Origin: Candidatus Fermentibacteraceae bacterium | Lineage (GTDB): Bacteria; Fermentibacterota; Fermentibacteria; Fermentibacterales; JCC-6 | Length of the DNA stretch: 64,000 nt | NCBI GenBank assembly: GCA_016744855.1 | Contig: JADGDO010000010.1 | Location: forward strand, 1-64,000 | Direction of reading: 5' to 3' | Part shown: piece by piece, positions 32,341 to 39,329 of the stretch | Numbering within the stretch: the stretch's first letter is position 1 | Layout: every line of letters starts with the position of its first letter | Translations under genes and position numbers: made by a program | The notes under the pieces: model-generated | The model's database searches: none | Told to the model about the DNA's origin: nothing | What the model saw: the letters and a program-made list of their open reading frames with translations, nothing else

Positions 32341-35175
32341 TTGAATGCCATTGCAATATTATTGTTGACTGTATCCGGCATTCTGCCAATTTGGGAGATA
32401 CATCTTGATGCAACACCAAGGGGCGAAGCTCAACTGATATCAAGAGGGGTAGCAGAACAAGTTCTATTTATTCCCATGGGCAATGCCGGTCTGGGTGCCT
32501 GGGGTCCGGGAGGAACACAACTGCCTGGCTTCCCTGTATCAAACGGAGTGGGTGTGATTTGGCGACCTGCAGCTGTACCCGGTTCGACTGGCGAAACTCT
32601 GATTGCATACGCCGACAATGACGGCTTCACCCACCTGATTGACTTCAATGGTAATGAGGCTTACGGCTGGCCGGTTAACAACAACTGCAATGTAATAACA
32701 GGTATAACGACAGTCGACCTGAATGATGACGGAGACTTCGAAATAACCTATGGAACCAGTAATGGAATGGTTCATCTCCTGAACCTTCGTGGACAAAGCG
32801 TTCAGGGCTTCCCAGTTGATCTGCAATCACAACTTCAACACCAACCAACTCAGATCAGTCTCGGTGGAGGTTTTCATGATGGAATTATCTGCGCAACAAA
32901 CAACAGCCGCATAACAATTCTTGGTTCGGATGGTATTGAACTGCCCGGCTGGCCGAAGCTGACAGGTTATCCTACCGGTACTACACCGGTTTCAGGTGAT
33001 GTAAACGGAGACGGTCAGGCAGATATTGTTTTTGCCAGCCAGGACGGAAAAGTTCACCTTTACAACCTCTTGGGGGAAGAGCAGGAAGGGTGGCCTTTTT
33101 ACATGGACGAGCGTCCCGTCCCTGGAGCAACCTCAATCGGTCTCATAGATACAGAACTTGCGCTACCACAGATAGCAGTTTCCTCAATCGACAGTACTGT
33201 GTACTTGTTAAACGGTGATGGTTCCATTGCTGGTGACTGGCGCTGGCCTAACAGAACAGATTCACGACCCTATCAGCCGATTCTTGCCAACACAGAAGCT
33301 GGCCCCTCGGTTATAACCACCTCAAATAATGGTAGCATCTATGCATGGAGTCCGAACGGTAGAAGAGTCAGCGGCTATCCTATTGAACATCCCGGTGGTA
33401 TTACTTATCCTCCTGTTGTTGGAGACATGAACAAAGATGGAGAAATGGAGCTTATTGTAGTTGGGGTGGGAGGAACCGTTTCTGCATATCCTGTCGCCTC
33501 TTATGTTTCTTCAAAATGTATGTGGCCCCTGCCCCTTGGTGACCAGTACAATTCAGGTTCCTACGGCACAGATTTTCTTCCGGCAGCGGAAGTTGAGCAA
33601 CTCACCGGTGAATTCAGCGGACCCGTATCTGTCGCCTACTCGATAACCTGTTCTGAATGGACAGGCATCTCTGTCAGTTACTCTACAGATGCAGGTTACA
33701 CGTGGAATGAAACGCGCAACTACACAGAACGCCCCGGAACAATAACTTGGAATTCAGATCAGGACCTACCGAGTGAAGATCAGCGAAGATGTCTTATCAG
33801 AATCACTCCATACTCTACTTTCGGACCTGGCGAGAGCGGCACATCTGGACTCCTTCATATCGACAATAACAGACCGCCTGAGATTCTCATGGAATCTCCG
33901 ATTAAAATTGATGATTCAAGATTCAGCCTCGGTTACGCTGTAGAAGACAACGAGGGCGATATTATTCAGCTCCAGGCACAGTACTCCACTGACGGTGGCA
34001 GCAGCTGGGAAACAATGCACCTCAGCGGCAGCAGCATTGAAATCGAGCCCTGGTTCTACGGGGAACCGGTCACTTGGAATGCTGTTGCTGACATAGGTCA
34101 TATAGATACCGACAACATAAAAATTAGAATAAGAGCAGCAGACGCAGATCCAGGTTCATGGTTCTTCATCGACGGTCTTCATATCGATACCGACAGATTA
34201 CCGAGTGCACAGATTATAGCTCCGGGCACAGAGGTTTATGGTCAGGTATCTCTTGGTGTTCGGCTAAGCGATCCTGAACAGAACATGCTTGATATTGCAT
34301 ACCAGTACAGTACGGATGGCGGATACAACTGGCTTCCAGCTACAGTTATTGAGGCAGAGCAGGCTGGAGTGGGCAGATATGATTTTGAAATAGTCTGGGA
34401 GTCCCAAAGGGATCTACCTGGATTTGACGGGTATCAGGTTAGGCTTCAGGCTCTTCCATCAGACATGAACACAGGAATAGCTGTTCCTTCAGCACCGTTC
34501 CACCTGGACAACAACTCCCAACCCACAGCTAGGATCACTTCTCCCTCCGTGTACGATGTTTTCCGGGGAAGCGTTCCTGTAAATTTCTCAGTAACAGATA
34601 TAGAGAGCGATGACATTACTATAAACCTCGAGTACAGACTTCACGGTGTTGAGGAGACATGGCACCTTGCTGATGGTCTTGTAAGCAAGGGACCTTTTGG
34701 ATTGTCAAGGTACAACACAATGCTTAACTGGAACAGTTCTGTGGACCTTCCAGAAGTTTCTATGCTTGATGTTGATATAAGACTGATTGCAATAGATGGT
34801 GATTCTGTGCGATCAGAAGTTATTGGACCAATCACCCTCGACAATACCGACATTCCGGAGCTGATTAGAGCAACACTATCCAATATGGACACACAGAGAG
34901 AACAGGCAGATGTCTCTTTCGAACTGGGAGATGAAGACGGTAGAACCATTGATCTCGCCATAGCCTATAGCTCGGATGGTGGAGAAAGCTGGAGACAGGC
35001 CACGGTCTCCGGAAATGCTCTCGGTCTTAATCCGCATTCATACAGCAATACTTTTACATGGCACTACGGAACAGATATCATGGGAACAAGAGGAACAGTC
35101 CTGCTTCGCATCACACCTACCTGGCAGGGAAGTAAACTGGGTAGACCTCGCTTTATAGAGCAGGCTTTCCGGTAA
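32341..35175 (+). CDS. Large secreted beta-propeller (FG-GAP/PQQ-like) and Ig-like repeat protein
   Basis: The start is TTG 32341 behind CCGGAGG; the product opens with a signal peptide (MNAIAILLLTVSGILP). In the 944 residues, 30-400 form a propeller with FG-GAP-like Ca-binding turns (DLNDDGDFEITYGTSNG, DVNGDGQADIVFASQDG, DMNKDGEMELIVVGVGG). Residues about 415-944 are four to five repeats. Each has an Asp-box-like turn (YSTDAGYTWNET, YSTDGGSSWET, YSTDGGYNWLP, YSSDGGESWR) and most a LDNN/HIDNNRPP linker. There is no C-terminal sorting domain. It is probably a cell-surface or outer-leaflet binding protein. It overlaps the end of thyX by 23 bases, tail to tail. Confidence 0.85.
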   Translation: MNAIAILLLTVSGILPIWEIHLDATPRGEAQLISRGVAEQVLFIPMGNAGLGAWGPGGTQLPGFPVSNGVGVIWRPAAVPGSTGETLIAYADNDGFTHLIDFNGNEAYGWPVNNNCNVITGITTVDLNDDGDFEITYGTSNGMVHLLNLRGQSVQGFPVDLQSQLQHQPTQISLGGGFHDGIICATNNSRITILGSDGIELPGWPKLTGYPTGTTPVSGDVNGDGQADIVFASQDGKVHLYNLLGEEQEGWPFYMDERPVPGATSIGLIDTELALPQIAVSSIDSTVYLLNGDGSIAGDWRWPNRTDSRPYQPILANTEAGPSVITTSNNGSIYAWSPNGRRVSGYPIEHPGGITYPPVVGDMNKDGEMELIVVGVGGTVSAYPVASYVSSKCMWPLPLGDQYNSGSYGTDFLPAAEVEQLTGEFSGPVSVAYSITCSEWTGISVSYSTDAGYTWNETRNYTERPGTITWNSDQDLPSEDQRRCLIRITPYSTFGPGESGTSGLLHIDNNRPPEILMESPIKIDDSRFSLGYAVEDNEGDIIQLQAQYSTDGGSSWETMHLSGSSIEIEPWFYGEPVTWNAVADIGHIDTDNIKIRIRAADADPGSWFFIDGLHIDTDRLPSAQIIAPGTEVYGQVSLGVRLSDPEQNMLDIAYQYSTDGGYNWLPATVIEAEQAGVGRYDFEIVWESQRDLPGFDGYQVRLQALPSDMNTGIAVPSAPFHLDNNSQPTARITSPSVYDVFRGSVPVNFSVTDIESDDITINLEYRLHGVEETWHLADGLVSKGPFGLSRYNTMLNWNSSVDLPEVSMLDVDIRLIAIDGDSVRSEVIGPITLDNTDIPELIRATLSNMDTQREQADVSFELGDEDGRTIDLAIAYSSDGGESWRQATVSGNALGLNPHSYSNTFTWHYGTDIMGTRGTVLLRITPTWQGSKLGRPRFIEQAFR

Positions 35176-36403
35176 CTTCCTCCCAACGGGATTTACCGCA
35201 AGTCATTTTCACAGTCTCCGGAGCTTTTTCTCTGATTTTGAGAATCATTTCGGAGGCTGTTCTTCTTATATCCCACTGGGCATGTGCATCATCTCTGAGT
35301 CTAATGAAATGATTGAATTCTCTGCCGTTGATACAAAGCCTGACCTGACGGCGATGAGCATTTGTCAGAAGCAATTCTCCTGCTCTGCCCAACCCCGAAG
35401 CAGCGTCAGCTGCCTTGGAGCATTCACGTCTGAACAGATCTCCTAGCCCTGCGTTTTCAATACTCGGTGGAACTGTTACTCCAAGTGCCGGATCATAAGC
35501 GGAGACAAGCTGCGTACTCATTCTGTGCCTTTTCAGCTGTGCGTATGCTGTAGCGGAGAGGGTAATTTTGAAATCAGCCCTGAATAACTCCCAAAACCTT
35601 GGCAATGCATCATGAATACCGAGATGATCGTAGATTCTGTCGAACGTCGGTTCTCCAAAAAGTTCAGTAAGCCAGTCTGCGATTCTCTTATCGGAATCAC
35701 AACTTAGGAGCTCAGTGTTACAGTCGGTTTTTACTGGTGCCGGTTGTCTATGGGCTATTCTATCCATTTCAGTTGGTTCGGTGAAGAGCATAAGAGAAGA
35801 AGCAACAGGAAGAACAGCATCGTAAAGAGCGCAGGCAAGATCCTGAACTTCTCTTATTGGATGGGCCTTCATCCTTCTGATCATATGTTCAAGCTCTCGC
35901 GCATTTACTGTCATACCCATCTGGCTCGTTGTTGCAAGAGGGAGAATGTATCTAGCATCTTCTCTGGCTTCGGTCTTTGAAAGGCCGGATTTCAGCAGGG
36001 TTGCCAGTATCTCCTCATAGCACTCGAACAAATCGGTCAGGACAGTTGAGTACTCTTTCATCTCTTCTGGAAGAACCCAATCTTCCCCTATCCGGATGTA
36101 CCTCTGCGATTTCTCGGTAAAACTGATAAGCCTGAATGACTGAATAGCCTCTGCAGCCAGTCTTGAAATGCCGAGGATATCGAAATTGAAAACTGCATGC
36201 TCTGCTATTGAACCATGACCGTATTTGTAAACAATGGTTCTGTTTGACTTGCGTGCAAAATCTACTTCACTGGCGGATTTTGCTCTCAGCTCGGTAATAG
36301 GCGCCGGATCACGACTGATTCTGGCGTATGCCGCGGAAATTGTTTCAGGGGTTTCGGAACCGTTTTCGGTATCGGTGTTGTATCCGGCCAGAATAACCTT
36401 CAC
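35153..36403 (-). CDS. thyX: Double-length FAD-dependent thymidylate synthase ThyX with split motifs
   Basis: The start is GTG 36403 behind GAGGAG. The 416-residue protein is nearly twice the usual ThyX length and consists of two ThyX-like halves. Half 1 (1-220) has GHGSIAEHAVFNFDI, SFTEKSQRYI (94-103) and TVNARELEHMI, but its RHR site has decayed to SFR. Half 2 (225-416) has LKRHRMSTQLVSAY with RHR at 292-294 and CINGREFNHFIRLRDDAHAQWDIR, but lacks the SQRY part. It would convert dUMP to dTMP using FAD, NADPH and methylene-THF, perhaps with each active site built from both halves. It follows the GH84 gene by 10 bases. Confidence 0.85.
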   Translation of the reverse strand: MKVILAGYNTDTENGSETPETISAAYARISRDPAPITELRAKSASEVDFARKSNRTIVYKYGHGSIAEHAVFNFDILGISRLAAEAIQSFRLISFTEKSQRYIRIGEDWVLPEEMKEYSTVLTDLFECYEEILATLLKSGLSKTEAREDARYILPLATTSQMGMTVNARELEHMIRRMKAHPIREVQDLACALYDAVLPVASSLMLFTEPTEMDRIAHRQPAPVKTDCNTELLSCDSDKRIADWLTELFGEPTFDRIYDHLGIHDALPRFWELFRADFKITLSATAYAQLKRHRMSTQLVSAYDPALGVTVPPSIENAGLGDLFRRECSKAADAASGLGRAGELLLTNAHRRQVRLCINGREFNHFIRLRDDAHAQWDIRRTASEMILKIREKAPETVKMTCGKSRWEEVTGKPAL

Positions 36404-37637: not shown

Positions 37638-39329
37638 ATGGCAAAACGTATAGTCGAATGTGTTCCTAATATTTCTGATGGCAGGAACCCGGAAGTTATT
37701 GATGCAGTCGTAAAAGCGGCTTCTTGTGTGAGTGGAGCATCGGTTCTTGATGTCGACCCGGGAGCAGCAACAAACAGAACTGTTATCACTATTGCCGGAG
37801 AACCTGAAGCAGTTCTTCAGGCCGCATTCAATGTTATCGAGAGCGCTGGTAAGCTTATTGATATGAGAAAACAGACAGGTAGTCACCCCCGCCACGGTGC
37901 TACTGATGTTTGTCCTTTTGTTCCGGTAAGCGGAATCACAATGGAAGAATGTGCTGAGCTCGCAAGAAGATTGGGTAAAAGAGTTGGAGAAGAACTGAAA
38001 ATTCCTGTCTACCTTTACGAATACGCTGCATCAAAACCTGAATGGGTAAAATTACCAAATATTCGTGAGGGAGAATACGAAGCCCTTCAGAACAAGCTTG
38101 GAAAACCTGAATGGAAACCGGATTTCGGACCCAACGAATGGAATGATTCCTCAGCAAAAACTGGCGTATGCACCATCGGTGCAAGAAACTTCCTTATTGC
38201 ATACAATGTTAATCTCAATACAACTGACACTTCAATGGCCAAAGAGATTGCATTAAACATAAGAGATACCGGAAGAACAAAAAGAACAAATCAGTGGAAA
38301 TTTGCCAGAGACGAGAATGGCAAGAAAGTCACGCAGGAAGGCAGGCTCAAAAACTGCAAGGCTTTCGGCTGGTTTATTGAAGAATACAATACTGCCCAGG
38401 TAACTATGAATCTCACAGACATTGCAGTTACCCCTCTTCACATCGGGTTCGATGTAACAAAAGAAGAAGCTGAGAAACTAGGTCTCATGGTAACCGGAAG
38501 CGAAGTCGTGGGACTGGTTCCTCTCAGCTCTATGGTAGATGCCGGAAAGTACTATCTCGAAAAACAGAACCGTGCTCTTCTCAACATCGGAAAGCAGGCG
38601 AAATCTGTCGGGGCTCCCGAAAGAGACCTCGTAGATATCGCTATTCGCTCGATGGGCCTCAGTGATGTTGCAGAATTTGATCCCGACAAAAAAATAGTTG
38701 AATACATCATTGCAGATAAATCAGTCAATCTCTCAGGTATGACCTGCAAAGCATTCTGCGACGAGCTCTCGATTGACAGCCCTGCCCCTGGAGGCGGAAG
38801 TGCCGCAGCACTAATAGGCGCAGTAGGCGCCGGCCTGGACAGCATGGTTGCAAACCTCACTGTGAAGAACAGGAAATTCAAATCCAGCTGGGAAGAAATG
38901 CTTGAACTGGCACCAGAAGCTCAGGATATCAAAGAATTCCTTGTGAATGCAATTGATGATGATACCCGTTCATTCAATATCTGGATGGATACTATCAGGG
39001 CCAAGGGTGACGTGCAGACAGCAATCAAGGGTGCTATTGAAGTTCCTCTTAGCGTTCTTGCAAAATCGCCGAGAATTGCTGAAATGGGACTTGCTCTGAT
39101 TGAAAGAGGAATGCAGTCAAGCCTCTCTGACGCAGGAGTAGCTGCCGCTGCAGCAAGGGCCTGTGCTACTGGAGCATACTACAATGTTCTTATTAATCTT
39201 CCTGAAATTGAAGATACAGAGTATAAAAATAGAATACTGGTTGAAGCAGACAGACTTCTCGCAGAAACTGAAGATTGCGCTTCGAAAGTACAGAAACTGG
39301 TAATAGAAAAACTGAAAAATAAGGGATGA
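37638..39329 (+). CDS. ftcD: Fused glutamate formimidoyltransferase / formimidoyl-THF cyclodeaminase
   Basis: The protein has 563 residues. N-terminal transferase domain (about 1-330): RIVECVPNISDGRNPEVIDAV, DPGAATNRTVITIAGEP, GSHPRHGATDVCPFVPV. C-terminal cyclodeaminase domain (about 355-563): FCDELSIDSPAPGGGSAAALIG and SDAGVAAAAARACATGAYYN. It moves the formimino group of formiminoglutamate to tetrahydrofolate and then releases ammonia to give methenyl-THF, the last step of histidine degradation. The folate product could feed ThyX, encoded next to it. The transketolase gene follows with an overlap or a 5-base gap. Confidence 0.95.
   Translation: MAKRIVECVPNISDGRNPEVIDAVVKAASCVSGASVLDVDPGAATNRTVITIAGEPEAVLQAAFNVIESAGKLIDMRKQTGSHPRHGATDVCPFVPVSGITMEECAELARRLGKRVGEELKIPVYLYEYAASKPEWVKLPNIREGEYEALQNKLGKPEWKPDFGPNEWNDSSAKTGVCTIGARNFLIAYNVNLNTTDTSMAKEIALNIRDTGRTKRTNQWKFARDENGKKVTQEGRLKNCKAFGWFIEEYNTAQVTMNLTDIAVTPLHIGFDVTKEEAEKLGLMVTGSEVVGLVPLSSMVDAGKYYLEKQNRALLNIGKQAKSVGAPERDLVDIAIRSMGLSDVAEFDPDKKIVEYIIADKSVNLSGMTCKAFCDELSIDSPAPGGGSAAALIGAVGAGLDSMVANLTVKNRKFKSSWEEMLELAPEAQDIKEFLVNAIDDDTRSFNIWMDTIRAKGDVQTAIKGAIEVPLSVLAKSPRIAEMGLALIERGMQSSLSDAGVAAAAARACATGAYYNVLINLPEIEDTEYKNRILVEADRLLAETEDCASKVQKLVIEKLKNKG

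Follow-up and report, generated by a model that had tools for sequence, protein, structure and literature searches.

The window analysed here is a stretch of 64,000 nucleotides from Candidatus Fermentibacteraceae bacterium (contig JADGDO010000010.1). A gene on its minus strand (35153..36403, with a GTG start and the stop codon at 35153-35155) encodes a double ThyX protein of 416 amino acids, and the start of the open reading frame (36403..35153) is supported by homologues that begin with the identical sequence MKVILAG. About 10 bases upstream, on the same strand, lies a gene for a GH84-type beta-N-acetylglucosaminidase (NAGidase; PF07555, 36414-37553, minus strand), from which a formiminotransferase-cyclodeaminase (FTCD) gene (37638-39329, plus strand) is divergent. 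The placement of FTCD with thyX recurs in nearly all Fermentibacterota loci, and the NAGidase gene is present in many of them. In the assembly of Candidatus Sabulitectum silens (L047 / G011:C4), the double ThyX gene is interrupted by a frame change.

A Pfam search identifies two Thy1 domains (PF02511) in the reading frame, at 35807-36355 (1.2e-35) and 35216-35638 (2.2e-18), both above the curated cut-off; the profile score over these two stretches is 187.7 bits against a cut-off of 24.8. The protein also scores 118.6 bits with TIGR02170, the NCBIfam ThyX equivalog profile, for which the cut-off is 87.9 bits. Half 1 (residues 1-215, 35759..36403, minus strand) is the ThyX domain with the substrate-side residues, and half 2 (residues 222-416, 35156..35740, minus strand) is the ThyX domain with RHR and R370. 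The two halves are homologous to each other, as detected by blastp within the protein (4.4e-4) and by hhalign comparison of the half profiles (1.6e-13). The predicted structure of the full-length protein has a mean pLDDT of 93.8 and a pTM of 0.90, and fold searches against ThyX crystal chains give Z scores of up to 16.9 for half 1 and up to 16.8 for half 2 folded alone, so that both models display the ThyX fold. The possibility that only one half is a ThyX domain was discarded because it is contradicted by the Pfam matches and fold searches of both halves. The initial annotation, made from the sequence of the window, had described two ThyX-like halves with complementary motifs and had named an unrelated half as the observation that would speak against its reading; the description is confirmed, and both halves reach Z scores of about 16-17.

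Ordinary ThyX is a D2 homotetramer with four sites. In the M. tuberculosis enzyme, subunit A contributes Arg95-His96-Arg97 and Arg199 to one site, subunit B contributes Ser71, which acts on the FAD phosphate, and Arg190, and subunit C contributes Arg87, Ser105, Arg107 and the lid residue Tyr108 (crystal-structure review PMC6514825). When the window protein is aligned to this enzyme, half 1 is found to hold the B residues, namely S65 (= Ser71; 36209..36211) and R169 (= Arg190; 35897..35905 for N167-A-R169), and the C residues, namely R81 (= Arg87, dUMP; 36161..36163) and S99, R101 and Y102 of the S99-Q100-R101-Y102 motif (= Ser105, Arg107 and Tyr108; 36098..36109); these and all residues listed below are encoded on the minus strand. 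At the A positions of half 1, however, S89-F90-R91 (36131..36139) is present in place of RHR, and M178 (35870..35872) occupies the position of Arg199. Conversely, half 2 holds the A residues, R292-H293-R294 (35522..35530), which would contact FAD and dUMP, and R370 (= Arg199, dUMP; 35294..35296); it lacks the SxRY motif, has A284 at the Arg87 position and carries N359-G-R361 (35321..35329) at the Arg190 position. R151 (35951..35953), the equivalent of T. maritima Arg147, a dUMP-side residue, is confined to half 1. The full set of active-site role residues is thus present, each once per chain. The motifs that had been read from the sequence at the outset (SQRY and NAR with SFR for RHR in half 1; RHR and NGR without SQRY in half 2) are confirmed, with the difference that the SxxxxSQRY block of half 1 spans residues 94-102 and not 94-103. 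The contiguous RHR-x(4-9)-SxRY motif that characterizes canonical ThyX within a single domain is found in neither half; since its parts are present but divided, the protein is classed as a ThyX variant, distinct from the canonical kind.

To assess the conservation of this pattern, double ThyX proteins were collected from a genome-contig scan (the best 80 of 488 relatives, from more than 10 phyla), a viral-contig scan and genome searches. The resulting 121 full doubles, from more than 10 phyla and from phages, comprise 114 of the main type (type I), six of type II and one of type III. The equivalents of Ser105, Arg107, Tyr108 and Arg147 in half 1, along with RHR and Arg199 in half 2, are each present in 121/121 doubles, where the SxRY motif is conditioned in the 77 rows of the genome-contig set, fetched in part with an SxRY-containing pattern, and is free of such conditioning in the 19 phage rows and the genome-search rows. 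None of the 121 doubles has arginine at the Arg199 position of half 1 or at the Arg87 position of half 2. A complete motif occurs in neither half of any double (0/121), so that the homologue with one complete half, named in the initial annotation as counter-evidence, was not encountered among them, and both patterns that it asked to see conserved are found in all 121. By comparison, RHR and SxRY occur together in 30/30 single ThyX loci from other genomes; given this difference, the split is not due to chance. An insertion-bearing single ThyX (L213, from G158) was omitted from the tally: in this canonical protein, RHR and SQQSQRY are separated by an intein-like insert that is several hundred residues long.

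Among the 114 type I doubles, with identity down to about 18%, 21 columns are conserved at 98% or more, and these include S65, S99, R101, Y102, R151, R169, R292, H293, R294 and R370. Serine at the position of S65 is found in 114/114 type I proteins, and arginine at the positions of R81 and R169 in 97/114 and 113/114, respectively; the latter is present in 0/6 type II proteins. In the broken motif of half 1, the first arginine is retained in 7/114 and the histidine in 5/114 type I proteins, whereas the third arginine (Arg97 position) is kept in 95/114, so that half 1 is not wholly stripped of the A role. The arginine at the position of R361 in half 2 is found in 98/114 type I proteins; many of the phage proteins have W, A or K there. 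Given that these proteins retain the Arg190 equivalent in half 1, half 1 is the most likely B donor. The complementary split is thus the rule throughout a widespread group of double ThyX proteins and not a peculiarity of the window genome. The double form accounts for 52 of the 247 sampled ThyX-bearing genomes outside the phylum of the window, about a fifth. Full-length phage doubles, including that of Microcystis phage Ma-LMM01, were obtained from the viral-contig scan and the fold search; in a search of phage records with the window protein, the matches cover only about half of the query.

A looser form of complementarity could be envisaged, in which catalysis is confined to one half while the other persists as a relic with a structural or regulatory function, and the faster divergence of half 2 of the window protein (terminal tree branch of 0.87, against 0.28 for half 1) is compatible with such a scenario. 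The A-role residues, however, are invariant in half 2 (121/121) and absent from half 1, SxRY and R151 show the reverse distribution, and a relic would not be expected to have retained RHR and R370 where identity falls to about 18%; we therefore regard this explanation as very unlikely.

Chlamydia ThyX appears to belong to the double group. In a genome of 1.0 Mb (G319), the thyX gene, coding for 529 amino acids, adjoins hemB, nqrA, a GreA-like gene and ChxR, presumably the Chlamydia gene order. The G319 protein contains two Thy1 domains and is split in the same manner as the window protein, with EKSSRY in half 1 and QRHR plus the Arg199-position arginine in half 2, and represents a diverged type I branch in which GDDS replaces GHxS. 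Purified ThyX of C. trachomatis has been assayed and is active (PMC3498832). Provided that the C. trachomatis enzyme resembles the G319 protein, the split-site architecture would work as an enzyme. The duplication, fusion and division of labour put forward in the initial annotation thus gain support from three sides: the lost residues are those of different crystal subunits, the pattern is shared by 121 homologues, and an active Chlamydia-type enzyme appears to be alike. Throughout the Chlamydia-type branch (L202-L205 and L207), aspartate occupies the position of T. maritima His53, so that GDxS replaces GHxS; a structure of the T. maritima H53D mutant is available (4kas).

The genome of the window protein itself (94.85% complete) encodes no other Thy1 protein, ThyA, thymidine kinase or DHFR_1, and these searches show the window gene to encode the only recognisable, predicted thymidylate synthase of this genome. 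More generally, a second Thy1 protein is absent from 25/25 double-bearing genomes from many phyla, and ThyA from 24/25. The predicted reaction of double ThyX is dUMP + CH2H4folate + NADPH -> dTMP, with FAD as the flavin. The structures 4p5a and 4p5b of the UMP/dUMP methylase PolB are likewise among the matches to the model, with lower Z scores, and one could suppose that the protein is a flavoenzyme with another reaction, such as nucleotide methylation. This is highly improbable, considering that the doubles are the sole Thy1-family proteins in genomes without ThyA, that the window genome lacks thymidine kinase and DHFR, that every dTMP-synthase residue is present and the score exceeds the NCBIfam ThyX equivalog cut-off, and that C. 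trachomatis ThyX is active on dUMP. Taken together, these observations are best compatible with the proposal that the flavin-dependent thymidylate synthase of this cell consists of two fused, diverged ThyX domains and that a dimer of such chains forms a pseudo-tetramer with two complete sites; we consider this likely.

The fusion of the domains in one chain excludes a homotetramer of identical single domains. In the proposed assembly, half 2 would fill only role A, and half 1 would fill roles B and C. Because the B and C residues reside in the same half but come from different subunits in the crystal structures, a complete site would require two copies of half 1 and one of half 2, and hence at least two fused chains. 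Two chains would form a pseudo-tetramer in which two sites are complete, with role A provided by half 2 and roles B and C by the two copies of half 1, and two are dead. If the copies of half 2 lie on a diagonal of the D2 arrangement, exactly two sites would be complete and the other two would lack everything; the other two D2 pairings would yield no complete site or would require residues that half 2 has lost. We infer two working sites per chain dimer. Alternatively, a single fused chain might be monomeric and form one composite site in cis, as could be surmised from the presence of every role residue once per chain. Known structures, however, draw the B and C residues, both located here in half 1, from two subunits, so that a single chain cannot build the site without an altered architecture, and this arrangement appears quite unlikely. 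For the same reason, the earlier suggestion that the homotetramer was replaced by a fused heterodimer is not supported in that wording: with B and C residues in half 1, at least two fused chains would be needed, and the assembly is probably better described as two fused chains that dimerize. In such a dimer, the fusion would have rendered the second pair of sites unnecessary, which would explain why the reciprocal losses became fixed.

Canonical homotetrameric ThyX/FDTS (T. maritima TM0449 and the M. tuberculosis enzyme) and the window protein are alike in fold, site residue set and expected reaction, but the window protein has two fused domains per chain, neither of which is complete, and at most two of the four sites of double ThyX are predicted to work. 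Herpesvirus dUTPase offers a parallel: it is related to a homo-oligomeric enzyme, arose by duplication and fusion, and has its site motifs divided over the two halves, but it has an unrelated fold and is a monomer with one site. Duplication of the ThyX domain in Chloroflexi was noted by Valas and Bourne in 2009 and left uncharacterised (PMC3224940); as in the window protein, there are two Thy1 domains per chain, but split motifs are not mentioned in that paper, and the sequences are not identified. Among the openly accessible papers searched, this is the only one to mention the duplication, and no description of complementary residue loss was found in them. Double ThyX would represent a clear example, provided by nature, of complementary degeneration within one enzyme, in which the halves of the site can be mutated separately; the halves can also be separated for expression, which raises the question of whether the fusion is still needed. 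For double enzymes, inhibitor design and structural models that assume a ThyX homotetramer and four equal sites would be wrong, and chlamydiae appear to use the double form.

In a tree of the halves and single ThyX proteins, the 34 half 1 rows and the 34 half 2 rows of type I each form a single group with full support, and the branching order within the two groups is similar. This parallelism suggests that type I most likely derives from one old duplication. A branch with a support of 62 sets all half 1 rows apart on one side, and a branch with a support of 85 does so for all half 2 rows; holding the type II halves together improves the likelihood by 15.03 (p-AU 0.817), on branches that are very long. 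Tentatively, and with considerable doubt, ThyX might have been duplicated and fused at least twice (in type I and in type II, L214-L219), with complementary residues lost both times with one polarity. The aligned residues indicate that this polarity is common to type I and type II, with the substrate side in half 1 and the RHR side in half 2. If two independent fusions did occur, the fusion of a symmetric oligomer would lead repeatably to reciprocal site loss. In type II doubles, the equivalents of Ser71 and Arg190 are gone from both halves, so that the FAD phosphate must be held otherwise and the B role is not universal among doubles. The single type III double (L206, from G217) has a half 2 close to ordinary ThyX, and yet shows the identical split.
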